The position numbers and the translations under genes are program-made. From the NCBI GenBank assembly GCA_020852275.1, contig JADZBE010000017.1:1-64000 (forward strand): a stretch of DNA of 64,000 bases, in the 5' to 3' direction. This stretch comes from Phycisphaerales bacterium (GTDB lineage Bacteria > Planctomycetota > Phycisphaerae > UBA1845). The notes under the pieces were generated by a model. That model ran no database searches. It had not been told where the DNA came from and saw nothing but the letters and a program-made list of their open reading frames with translations. Below, piece after piece: positions 39,857-43,891 of the stretch (positions are counted from its first letter, which is position 1; each line of letters begins with the position of its first letter).

Positions 39857-40160
39857 CACCGGGAACAAGATCACGTCCCGAATGCTCCGCGATTTCGTCA
39901 GCAGCATCACAAGCTGGTCGATGCCCACAACCAGACCTCCCGCCGGGGGGCATGCCGTTTTCGAGCGCGGTGACGAAGTCCTCGTCCATCACGCCCATCG
40001 TCTCATCACCCTCGCCCGCGACCTGGCGGTGGAAGTTCTCCTCCTGCACCCGCGGGTCGTTCAGCTCGGTGTAGGCGTTGCCCAGCTCCATCCCCGCGAC
40101 AAACACCTCGAATCGAAGGGCGATCGAGGGGTCATCCGGATTTCGGCGATTCAGCGGAGC
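39857..40160 (-). pseudogene. degenerate second copy of the lysS 3' end
   Basis: [54 protein letters not shown]... aligns with lysS 42257-42555; one extra G in a G-run shifts the frame. Confidence 0.92.
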
Positions 40161-40699
40161 AGGCCATCGGCTTTCAGATCCGAGAGCAATTCCTTCGCTT
40201 GGCCGAATTTTGCCATGAGATGCCCCTTCAATCGAAATAACTCGACATCAAGTTGCTCGTCTCTTAGGCCTTCCCGTTCGAGAAACACCTGGGTAGCAGC
40301 AACCTCAAGTACGTCGCGATCGAACCGCTTGAGCCTAGGAGCAATCTCGGTCAGCGGAGGTTTGCCCGGAGGGACCGTGACATCGTAGTGTTCTCGGATC
40401 AACGCAGCGGGTTCCTCTCGCGCGTGATACGTGTACTGCACTACCAGCTCTCCCGTGGTTGGATTCGTGCCCAATTCCTTGCGATCCTCCTCGATGATCC
40501 CTCCGATCTTAAGAGTATCTGTAGCCCAAGCTACCAAACGTGAGTACGGGCCGAGTTGACGGATCGCAAAGTCCCGAAATGGAAGATCGTAACCCATCTC
40601 TCGAAGGAGGTAGACGATCTTCTGCATCTTGACACGTCCGTCGATGCCTCCGCATGCGTCAATGACCCTCGCCAGCTTGAGTTCATCGAAGTCCCTCAT
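40151..40699 (-). CDS. YwgA-like family protein
   Basis: DACGGIDGRVKMQKIVYLLREMGYDLPFRDFAIRQLGPYSRLVAWATDTLKIGGIIEE; start overlaps the HD gene stop (ATGA). Confidence 0.65.
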   Translation of the reverse strand: MRDFDELKLARVIDACGGIDGRVKMQKIVYLLREMGYDLPFRDFAIRQLGPYSRLVAWATDTLKIGGIIEEDRKELGTNPTTGELVVQYTYHAREEPAALIREHYDVTVPPGKPPLTEIAPRLKRFDRDVLEVAATQVFLEREGLRDEQLDVELFRLKGHLMAKFGQAKELLSDLKADGLLR

Positions 40700-42129
40700 C
40701 CTTCATCCTCCTTCCCTGAGTTCCCTGCAGAGCAATCCCACCCGCCTTTCAGAAGCTCCTCTACGAGCTTGGACTCGCGTTCGTCATAATAGAGTCGATA
40801 AACCGAAGTCTCGATTTTTGAGATTGCATCGATAACTTTCGACTCTGATTCAGCCGGATGTGGCTTTCCTTGCTTGTCAAGAAAGAAGATCACCTTGTCT
40901 TCTTCTTCCTCGCCGGCCTCCCCGCTGTGCTTGCTCTGCCGATAGAGCGCGTTGCGATACGCAAGGTCTGAAAACGTGTCGCGTGAACAGGAGAAAAACA
41001 GGTCGGTCCCTTTGAGCTTGGTAATGAACTCAAGCGCCTTATCCTGATTCCCCCTTTCGTGTAGTTCAATACATTTGTACGGTTGTTTACGGTGGACAAG
41101 CATTAGACACATCCGAGCAAGGCGCGCCGCATTTTCGCCGCCGCCTGAACTGAGTTTGGACCAATCCATGAACGTACACCAGAGGCGAAAATCGTCGAGT
41201 GACATATACGAATCGGTGTCCACTTGTCGTCCCGCAAGCATCTCTCGAAGTGCTTCGGGGCAAGCCCCGGGGACTTTCCCTGGATCGCCGTCCGCGATCG
41301 CGGCGGCAAGCGCGAGGATATTCGTGAGAAGCGCCTCGTAAGCGCGAGTCGTTCGGTGGACGTACACCTGAAGGTAGATGAACTCTCGGGCTTGGATGAA
41401 CTCCTCCACAACGTGAATCGCTTTGCGGCTGTCGAGACACAGGCGCCACACGCCATCCGCCTGTCCCTTGACGGAGACCTTACCGATGCGTAGGGAATGC
41501 AGCATCCAGTCCAGGTCAAACTCACCGTACCGAGGTCCGCACGCCTTGCTGTCGCGCAGTAGGTAGTCCATTCGATCCGCATCAAGTTGACTGCTTACGA
41601 AGTCCTTGCTCAGGAGATTCCCGCGATCCTCCTTGTTAAGTATCTGCACGACCTTGTCGGCCTCAACATCGTACTTGCAGAGAACACCCGCCAATCGCTC
41701 CCTGATAATCCGGCGGGACCACCCTTCGTGGTCCCTGGGATACTCATCCTGCGCGGCGGTGGGCGGCTTGATCGCCCGCTCGAAGACGTGTGAGAACGGT
41801 CCATGTCCGAGGTCGTGCAACAGTGCAGCAGCCAGTATGGTCCTTCGAAGTGGCCTTAAATCGCGGTATTCGTCGCTGTCCTCGCCGTGATGCTTCGCCA
41901 GAGCGTCGAGCATCCGCCTTGCAATATGGCACACTCCGAGGCTGTGGGCCCACCTGCTGTGCTCGGCGCCAGGATAAACCAGGAAACCCAAGCCAAGCTG
42001 CCGGATTCGGCGAAGCCGCTGGAATTCGGGCCGATCGATTAGCGCGAGGATCATCCGCCCCTCATCGTCGTCTGGAAGCTCGATGAGGTTGTGGACCGGG
42101 TCTCGAATAACCTTCGGCAGCGACGACAT
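40696..42129 (-). CDS. HD-domain phosphohydrolase (SAMHD1/dGTPase-like)
   Basis: VIRDPVHNLIEL, FQRLRRIRQLGLGFLVYPGAEHSRWAHSLGVCHIARRML, AALLHDLGHGPFSHVFE, DFVSSQLDADRMDYLLRDS. Confidence 0.92.
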   Translation of the reverse strand: MSSLPKVIRDPVHNLIELPDDDEGRMILALIDRPEFQRLRRIRQLGLGFLVYPGAEHSRWAHSLGVCHIARRMLDALAKHHGEDSDEYRDLRPLRRTILAAALLHDLGHGPFSHVFERAIKPPTAAQDEYPRDHEGWSRRIIRERLAGVLCKYDVEADKVVQILNKEDRGNLLSKDFVSSQLDADRMDYLLRDSKACGPRYGEFDLDWMLHSLRIGKVSVKGQADGVWRLCLDSRKAIHVVEEFIQAREFIYLQVYVHRTTRAYEALLTNILALAAAIADGDPGKVPGACPEALREMLAGRQVDTDSYMSLDDFRLWCTFMDWSKLSSGGGENAARLARMCLMLVHRKQPYKCIELHERGNQDKALEFITKLKGTDLFFSCSRDTFSDLAYRNALYRQSKHSGEAGEEEEDKVIFFLDKQGKPHPAESESKVIDAISKIETSVYRLYYDERESKLVEELLKGGWDCSAGNSGKEDEG

Positions 42130-42235
42130 CCTAACTACATCCTAACCATTCTTCTCGTGCCGTCAACCCCCAAGCTGGACGGCTCCCGGCCCTTCAGACC
42201 GCGAGCAATTCGAGGCCTTGATGGTGCTGGAGGGG

Positions 42236-43891
42236 TTAGGATACCCCCCCCTTCCGCTGCAACGGAAACAGAATCACATCCCGGATGCTCCGCGAATTCG
42301 TCAGCAGCATCACCATACGGTCGATGCCCACGCCCAGACCTCCCGCCGGGGGCATGCCGTATTCGAGCGCCGTCACGAAGTCCTCGTCCATGACTGCCAT
42401 CGTTTCGTCACCTTCGCCCGCCACCTGCCGCCGGAAGTTCTCTTCCTGCACGCGCGGGTCGTTCAGCTCGGTGTAGGCGTTGCCCAGCTCCATGCCGGCG
42501 ACAAAGGCCTCGAAGCGCAGGGCGATCGACGGATCCTCCGGGTGACGCCGCGTCAGCGGGCAGATCGACGCGGGGTAGTCGTACACGAACGTCGGCTGGA
42601 TCAGGTGCGGCTGCACCAGCACGTCGAACAGCTCATTGACCAGCACGTCGTGGTCGATGAGCGAGCCCTCGGCCGCGGGGTCCGGCTTCACATGCACGTG
42701 CCCGTCGCCGATCGACTTGGTGAGCTTCTGATAGATTCCCTCCGACTTCGCGCGTTCGAGCACGCCGGGCTTGTCTTTGATGTCCAGGCCGGCGTGTTCA
42801 CGAAACAGGTCGGCATACTTCGCGCGCCGCCAGGGCGGAGCGAAGTTGAGCATGTGCTCGCCGAAGGGACGCTGGAATGCACTTCCTGTCCCACCGAATC
42901 CACTTAGTTCGGTTGGCGATTTCCCAAAGGGAACCGCTCCCTCACGGTCGCGGCTCTGCTCGATCCCCGCTTCACGATCCACGATTGGCGATTCCCGATT
43001 CCCGATCACCTCAATCGCGGCCGCCACCATCCCCTCCGTCCGCTCCATCATCACGTGATAATCCGCGTACGCCTCGTACAGCTCGATCATGCTGAACTCG
43101 GGGTTGTGCCGCGGGCTGATGCCTTCGTTGCGGAAGTTGCGCGAGATCTCGAACACCCGCTCCATTCCGCCCACCAGCAGCCGCTTCAGATACAGCTCCG
43201 GGCTGATGCGCAGGAACAGGTCCATGTCCAGCGTGTTGTGGTGCGTCACGAACGGTCTCGCGGCCGCTCCGCCGTAGATCGGCTGAAGCACGGGCGTATC
43301 CACTTCGAGATACCCCAGATCGACCAGGTACTCGCGGATGGCGTGGATGATCGCGCTGCGCCGGCGGAAGACCTCGTACACCTCCTCGCGGTTGGAGAAG
43401 AGGTCCACGTAGCGGTGCCGGTAGCGAAGCTCGACGTCGGTCAGGCCGTGCCACTTTTCCGGCGGCGGGCGCAGAGCCTTGGCGAGCACGGTGAGCCTCG
43501 TCAGCCACAGCGTCAGCTCGCCGGTCTTCGTACGTCCGATGATGCCTTCGCCGCCGATGATGTCGCCGAGGTCGAGCTGCTTGAAGACGGTCCACTGCGC
43601 ATCGCCGAGGTCGCCCTTCGACAGGCCGAACTGCATCGTGCCCGTGCGGTCCTGCACGGTGAGGAACGCGAGCTTGCCGATGTCGCGCAGCAGCGTGATG
43701 CGCCCGGCCATCCGCGCCGTGAAGTCCGCCAGCTTCTGCCCAACGGGGATGTCAACGACATCCGCCCGCGCCCGCACATCGACCGTGGGTTCAACATCCG
43801 GGAACCGCCCGCCGTACGGGTCCACCCCCGCCGCGCGCAGCGCCTCCCGCTTCCTCTCCCGCTCCTGCATGAAACGATCGGTCTCGGCCAT
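42236..43891 (-). CDS. lysS: lysine--tRNA ligase (class II) with an in-frame repeat-derived insertion
   Basis: RNEGISPRHNPEFSMIELYEAYADY, TSP-type C-terminus [60 protein letters not shown]. Confidence 0.95.
   Translation of the reverse strand: MAETDRFMQERERKREALRAAGVDPYGGRFPDVEPTVDVRARADVVDIPVGQKLADFTARMAGRITLLRDIGKLAFLTVQDRTGTMQFGLSKGDLGDAQWTVFKQLDLGDIIGGEGIIGRTKTGELTLWLTRLTVLAKALRPPPEKWHGLTDVELRYRHRYVDLFSNREEVYEVFRRRSAIIHAIREYLVDLGYLEVDTPVLQPIYGGAAARPFVTHHNTLDMDLFLRISPELYLKRLLVGGMERVFEISRNFRNEGISPRHNPEFSMIELYEAYADYHVMMERTEGMVAAAIEVIGNRESPIVDREAGIEQSRDREGAVPFGKSPTELSGFGGTGSAFQRPFGEHMLNFAPPWRRAKYADLFREHAGLDIKDKPGVLERAKSEGIYQKLTKSIGDGHVHVKPDPAAEGSLIDHDVLVNELFDVLVQPHLIQPTFVYDYPASICPLTRRHPEDPSIALRFEAFVAGMELGNAYTELNDPRVQEENFRRQVAGEGDETMAVMDEDFVTALEYGMPPAGGLGVGIDRMVMLLTNSRSIRDVILFPLQRKGGVS

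Follow-up and report, generated by a model that had tools for sequence, protein, structure and literature searches.

How can two small genes come to stand between an intact housekeeping gene and a second, broken copy of that gene's own 3' end? This question is raised by a stretch of 64,000 nucleotides from a Phycisphaerales bacterium (assembly GCA_020852275.1, contig JADZBE010000017.1, positions 1 to 64,000 of the forward strand; called the window below), in which a gene for an HD-domain phosphohydrolase (HD) and a ywgA-like gene are found on the minus strand between lysS and a remnant of the lysS 3' end. Homology-anchored illegitimate recombination is in our opinion the likeliest route by which the pair arrived, and it is this route, together with the direction of the transfer, that we infer from the observations given here. 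The intact anchor gene lysS (42236..43945, minus strand) encodes 569 aa in its longest frame, matches Pfam tRNA-synt_2 (E 4e-87) as well as an OB-fold, and is the only full-length lysS match that a search of the window genome returned. It is followed by HD (40696..42129, minus strand, 477 aa), which belongs to the EF1143/YwfO/SAMHD1 type by Pfam HD and family profile matches and has kept its catalytic residues, and by the ywgA-like partner gene (40151..40699, minus strand, 182 aa), which adjoins HD in most of the relatives' loci and has a profile match to the DarG C-terminal domain. The stop of HD and the start of ywgA overlap in the sequence ATGA (40696-40699). A BLAST search with the lysS 3' end hit only two places in the window's own genome, namely lysS itself and positions 39854-40162 of the minus strand, the latter with 85% identity over 309 bp (E 3.5e-96). 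Pairwise alignment pairs this remnant with the part of lysS from -328 to -21 relative to the lysS stop (42257-42563, minus strand). The two copies, 85-86% identical, differ by 43 mismatches and by a single additional base on the remnant side, which disrupts the reading frame. The gene order, the scattered substitutions and the frame-breaking base had all been described from the sequence alone in the original prediction and were borne out by BLAST and alignment, and the coordinates of the duplication were slightly corrected to those given here. The homology was said to run up to the ywgA stop codon; it does so and extends further, through the stop into the last ywgA codons, as lysS-like sequence forms the final codons and the stop of this gene (40151..40162, minus strand), where CTGCTCCGCTGA of ywgA pairs with CTGCCCGCTGA of lysS.

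A duplication of this kind exceeds chance. Partial downstream copies of 3' ends were counted for 6/68 lysS genes vs 7/564 other genes in the same loci (Fisher p 0.0012). On inspection, at least four of the seven non-lysS cases are whole-gene tandem paralogues, and when only the two comparable non-lysS cases are counted, the enrichment for lysS reaches a Fisher p of 3e-5; as the genomes are related, the independence of the cases is overstated in these tests. Elsewhere in the window's lysS, an in-frame stretch (..SPIVDREAGIEQSRDREGAVPFGKSPTELSG..; 42880-43000) aligns poorly with the relatives and matches short dispersed repeats in this genome and in relatives, and is apparently a repeat inserted into this housekeeping gene.

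The duplication is not a peculiarity of the window. The lysS regions of about 75 genomes were fetched and 72 loci scored, with many of the assemblies fragmented and with gene calls that are our own picks of open reading frames (ORFs). DNA searches found pieces of the lysS 3' end in all four genomes of the genus (the window genome G000 and its congeners G001, G002, and G003) and in four others of the order. In G002, G018, G048, G084, and G095 the remnants are located 3' of lysS in the same orientation, in G001 and G003 they are on a separate contig, the assemblies breaking near lysS, and G002, G003, and G048 have two remnants each. Compared to 309 bp in the window, the remnants elsewhere are about 38 to 256 bp long. 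The uninterrupted state can be seen in 36/72 loci, in which a gene for a FtsX/MacB-type permease (lolC-like according to Pfam) begins not more than 200 bp, and often less than 10 bp, after lysS, usually followed by genes for an ABC-type ATPase and an aminotransferase-like protein. No fully empty site was seen within the genus, all four genomes of which carry remnants. The first genes after lysS differ from genome to genome. They are HD and ywgA in G000, and an AAA_14-DUF4143 ATPase, the PADLOC candidate PDC-S01, in G002, with the same kind recognized by sequence likeness in G031, G051, and G077. PIN with a small upstream gene follows lysS in G003, G031, and G048, and a truncated PIN in G084; G048 furthermore has DUF2283 and an mREase_II restriction protein. 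PDDEXK_3 is found in G016 and by likeness in G036, HEPN in G035, and on contig C299 of G018 a MNT-HepT module has a 35-bp lysS piece on one side and the permease gene on the other. Some of the interrupted loci hold cargo without a defence flavour, and therefore the site is not exclusive to defence or toxin-antitoxin (TA) modules. In G002 and G003 modules are found between the two remnants, and their order is compatible with modules having come in beside lysS one after another. On this sequence evidence, the lysS 3' junction looks like a recurrent landing site without a nearby integrase. If the lysS end had merely been duplicated in tandem and genes had later been gained independently between the copies, the same-orientation remnant would be accounted for, but this explanation is opposed by the serial remnants with different intervening modules in G002, G003, and G048, by remnants that are fused into cargo genes and by the codon-position pattern described below, and we regard it as very improbable. 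A second, older remnant past an amine oxidase gene, as present in G002, was not found in the window. Repeats beside lysS in G088 (L123) proved to be short repeated low-complexity sequence and were left out of the counts. In G001 (L057, G001:C13, 1755-3001), a 467-bp part of an amine oxidase gene beside the lysS remnant is tandemly duplicated with 99% identity.

The junctions themselves are informative about the route. The 5' starts of the remnants vary widely (-45, about -57, -93, -95, about -130, -137, -150, -180, about -208, -328, and -345), and three of the junctions lie within a cargo gene or at its end. The genes concerned are ywgA in the window, DUF2283 in G048, and in G084 a PIN gene of which only about 24 residues are left. 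Moreover, the second remnant of G048 (L058, G048:C21) has a lysS fragment in frame with the middle of a gene for a DUF4143-type ATPase, resulting in a chimeric ORF of 194 aa. Neither tyrosine nor serine recombinases (PF00589, PF00239) were found on the lysS contigs of seven out of eight genomes; the exception is G001, whose contig encodes a large serine recombinase at a distance of 22 kb from the remnant and with no lysS copy near it. For the window, the impression that no integrase is visible holds for the whole 129-kb contig C17, which has no PF00589 or PF00239 match. The variable starts and the lack of linked recombinases therefore argue against site-specific integration and for illegitimate joining. 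A comparable case was met in G003 while PIN relatives elsewhere were examined. In the nuo operon of this genome (L254, G003:C7:110000-126000), a small ORF and a PIN gene come after nuoF, then a nuoF 3' remnant starting at -197, a PIN tail preceding a second nuoF remnant of 94% identity, a further PIN gene and, further on, nuoG. Thus, nuoF in G003 shows the same tail-remnant pattern as lysS; nuoF matches in the three congeners are one each. In the same genome the nuoD 5' end is partly duplicated upstream, with an insert between nuoD and nuoE. An integrating element that enters the gene end and restores it with its own copy, as the original prediction had supposed from established cases, was rejected for lysS, since the remnant starts vary, no recombinase is linked and no cargo gene is common to the loci. 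Gene 3' ends are classical attachment sites and almost all remnants contain the final 35-45 nt of lysS, which would suit a pair carried by an integrase-driven element, or by an integrase-less relic mobilised in trans, with the lysS 3' end as attachment site. However, a fixed crossover point is missing as well, and nuoF behaves in the same way, so that this explanation is improbable.

The HD-ywgA pair looks imported, since four lines of sequence evidence agree. First, the G+C content at third codon positions (GC3) is 0.65 for HD and 0.61 for ywgA vs a mean of 0.80 (sd 0.07) for 43 window genes, among which ywgA has the lowest value and HD is within the lowest three. Second, no close homolog of HD was found in the three congeneric genomes, and the nearest homologs, with 54-61% identity, are located in other genera and at loci other than lysS. 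Third, other modules of the defence or TA type use the same site in relatives. Fourth, the two lysS ends have diverged as functional genes do. When the differences between lysS and the remnant were polarised with the lysS genes of three congeners, 32 of 42 were at codon position 3 (p 4e-5 with an expectation as generous as 0.45). On the remnant side there are 22 changes, 14 of them at codon position 3 (p 0.0035 vs neutral drift), and eight changes at positions 1 or 2 together with the frameshift represent its decay. Due to this third-position bias the remnant can be assumed to have been a working lysS end for most of its separate history and to have decayed afterwards. The codon-position pattern therefore speaks for a diverged donor lysS end that came in together with the module, so that, together with BLAST and pairwise alignment, the end now carried by lysS (42257..42563) is probably derived from the donor and the degenerate, frameshifted remnant (39854..40162) is probably the former resident end. 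A free tree of the 3' ends places the remnant outside the lysS ends of the genus, but this tree is short and weak, and since it leaves the matter undecided, the claim of a donor end rests on the codon-position pattern. The import that had been proposed for the pair is thus partly supported, by the foreign composition and the codon-position pattern among others.

Several observations weigh against a donor-derived end. A sister relation of the two G000 ends is not rejected by the approximately unbiased (AU) test (p 0.35), and HD and ywgA beside lysS were seen in none of the other genomes examined, so that no donor arrangement was found. Furthermore, the first remnants in G002, G084, and G048 look like recent, near-identical copies (about 88-93% identical to their own lysS, about 93% in G002 and G084) with roughly neutral changes that are spread over the codon positions, which is better explained by duplication in place than by import. 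These points make insertion in place with a long target duplication the main rival, in which the target is duplicated through template switching or through a staggered cut of exceptional length as the module enters the lysS 3' end, lysS keeps its own end, the fresh copy decays and no donor lysS is needed. In G002 (L053, G002:C61), about 15 residues (about 45 nt) ahead of motif 3 are missing from lysS and an almost identical deletion is found in the remnant downstream, which suggests gene conversion or a duplication after the deletion. Also the 94% identity of the second nuoF remnant, the AU result and the long variable duplications described for restriction-modification genes (PMC3874152) speak for the rival, and some of the remnants may indeed be duplications in place or have undergone later gene conversion. 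For the window, however, the third-position bias on the remnant side and over all differences is that of two functional alleles, and we consider the in-place explanation rather unlikely here, though it deserves to be taken seriously.

According to the route that we favour, homology-anchored illegitimate recombination, an incoming piece of DNA would have carried HD and ywgA together with a diverged lysS 3' end. On one side it would have recombined homologously within lysS, and the other side would have been attached by an illegitimate join within the resident lysS 3' end; made redundant by the new end, this resident end would now be decaying behind ywgA. The same type of event would have been repeated at the lysS junction across the order with differing small TA or defence-type modules, and nuoF would have served as the anchor on at least one occasion. 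A possible reason for the position is that the permease gene follows closely: a join further down would damage it, and the redundant lysS tail would be the one spot able to tolerate a sloppy one. Taken as a whole, the import of a donor end, the illegitimate join and the restrained deoxynucleoside triphosphate (dNTP) hydrolase discussed below form the best explanation we have, with even chances of being right. Two described processes are close to it. Insertion with long and variable target duplications, in the order of 100 bp, is known for restriction-modification genes (PMC3874152; PMC1643837; PMC3031569) and is credited to Nobusato 2000 and Furuta 2010 (in PMC3874152, PMC1643837). As there, a small selfish or defence module without a mobile element is flanked by a long variable direct target duplication, and the window locus has the duplication, the uninterrupted lysS-permease site in relatives (36/72) and a contig free of linked PF00589 and PF00239 matches. 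In contrast, the cargo here is mostly not of the restriction-modification type, one junction is reused serially, and the divergence between the copies in the window is that of functional alleles, which suggests that the anchor end was imported. Homology-facilitated illegitimate recombination was proposed for the immunity-gene arrays of type VI secretion systems and for orphan Rhs tips (PMC5361080). Similar to these, there is a conserved upstream anchor gene with new modules beside it and older modules and gene-end remnants pushed downstream, and the junction on the other side is illegitimate and not fixed (starts between -45 and -345, with fusions to ywgA, PIN, and ATPase genes); however, the anchors lysS and nuoF are housekeeping genes unrelated to the TA or defence-type cargo. 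From elements that depend on an integrase, the lysS site differs by having neither a linked recombinase nor a fixed crossover core. What is new is that the cargo is mainly not of the restriction-modification type, that a single housekeeping junction has been used repeatedly across an order, and that the codon positions give evidence for separate functional alleles. A duplication habit of the HD-ywgA pair itself was rejected, because no comparable host-gene repeat surrounds the pair at other loci.

What might the imported pair do? The profile of HD matches 2o6i (EF1143; E 6e-103) and SAMHD1, and the residues H62, H105-D106, and D188 are invariant among 16 homologs. Thus, HD resembles the dNTP triphosphohydrolases EF1143/YwfO and SAMHD1 over nearly its whole length and in the invariant catalytic residues, but it differs from them in being paired with a YwgA-like gene, and its dNTPase activity is a prediction. 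The NCBIfam dGTPase models scored HD far below their cut-off, and the PADLOC dGTPase match is short and weak. YwgA matches the C-terminal domain of DarG (7yk3_B, E 1.7e-4) over the region QK..Y..F..yGPYS, and 15/16 YwgA homologs match the DarG model of PADLOC, which by sequence makes YwgA a remote relative of this inhibitor domain. The AlphaFold model of YwgA is confident (mean predicted local distance difference test score 96.4); a Foldseek search with it against the PDB gave no match at E 0.001, which does not favour this relationship. The DUF4065 domain of Panacea has no Pfam match among the 16 YwgA homologs. DarG directly binds and inhibits DarT (PMC8832971), and the region named above is common to YwgA and the DarG domain in 7yk3, but the window pair has neither a macrodomain nor DarT, and the partner is an HD hydrolase. 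In the phage defence system Clover a dNTP hydrolase has a dedicated restrainer (PMC12265719). The two-gene design of dNTP hydrolase and restraining regulator is shared by Clover, consisting of the dGTPase CloA and CloB, but CloB is a nucleotidyltransferase making p3diT, and no nucleotidyltransferase match was found for YwgA, neither in a Pfam scan of the window protein nor among the 16 homologs. Therefore, restraint by YwgA would need contact. By analogy, HD would hydrolyse dNTPs, and YwgA would bind and restrain HD as the DarG C-terminal domain restrains DarT; a restrained dNTPase is our best guess for the pair.

Whether such a system serves defence has to be weighed against its distribution. 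In 34/80 sampled HD loci YwgA is a neighbour, 29 of them among 58 Bacillota, and in Priestia the neighbour of HD was confirmed as a relative of YwgA. Within the phylum of the window, 24/280 good genomes have YwgA relatives, and because of this patchiness YwgA is an accessory gene there. HD has an ordinary chromosomal context, with or without YwgA, in Bacillus relatives, Listeria, and Bacteroides, which is against a pure defence function. Together with the YwgA neighbour in 29/58 sampled Bacillota HD genes, it would fit a housekeeping regulator of nucleotide pools that happened to move and is neither a defence nor a TA module. This is a reading to which we give somewhat less than even chances, as YwgA relatives are so patchy in the phylum and the pair, foreign in composition, occupies a site where restriction, PIN, HEPN/MNT, and candidate defence genes are found as well. 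The defence role given to the pair in the original prediction therefore fared unevenly, with the gene context in Bacilli speaking against it and the patchy, accessory YwgA in the phylum of the window for it; from the sequence data we regard it as plausible. The literature searched under the names YwgA and YwfO held nothing on an HD-YwgA pair, nor did the literature searched bring up any work on lysS as a hotspot.

Other features of the window and of the HD loci are noted for completeness. The spacer between lysS and HD has a promoter-like site, TTGACG-16-TAGGAT (42139..42166, minus strand), which was found by consensus scan only and is weak, as two sites were found vs 1.0 expected by chance. 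Just upstream of lysS, an AAA-family ATPase and its 213-aa partner (44634-46225) match the candidate defence models HEC-01A and HEC-01B, and their GC3 is also low. A small protein with a Mrr_cat domain (35835-37172) adjoins a 262-aa low-GC3 protein of no known family, and both are possibly another defence-type pair. Tandem paralogues ending in YMLRWINTKGQPGPWS (29495-32467) have a shared 97-bp repeat between them, and similar genes are present in G001. Among the loci of HD proteins, L133 and L137 on Sinorhizobium and Labrenzia plasmids have a repeated set of radical SAM, 3'-5' exonuclease, AAA ATPase, and HD protein near Shedu or methylase genes, and this four-gene set is possibly an undescribed defence cassette.

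The lysS loci bear on the question of how small TA and defence modules move without integrase or transposase. At lysS, the gene tail that is left behind by each arrival is a scar of the event and makes the route readable from the sequence, which suggests a simple search in any genome, namely for partial copies of gene tails near defence genes. HD-YwgA itself is a candidate for a restrained dNTP-destroying system. Going further, and only tentatively, it might be a widespread, undescribed pair of the TA or abortive-infection type, with a SAMHD1-like dNTPase kept in check by a protein similar to the DarG C-terminal domain, and such modules might spread within this order independently of integrases via the tails of housekeeping genes in tight operons.

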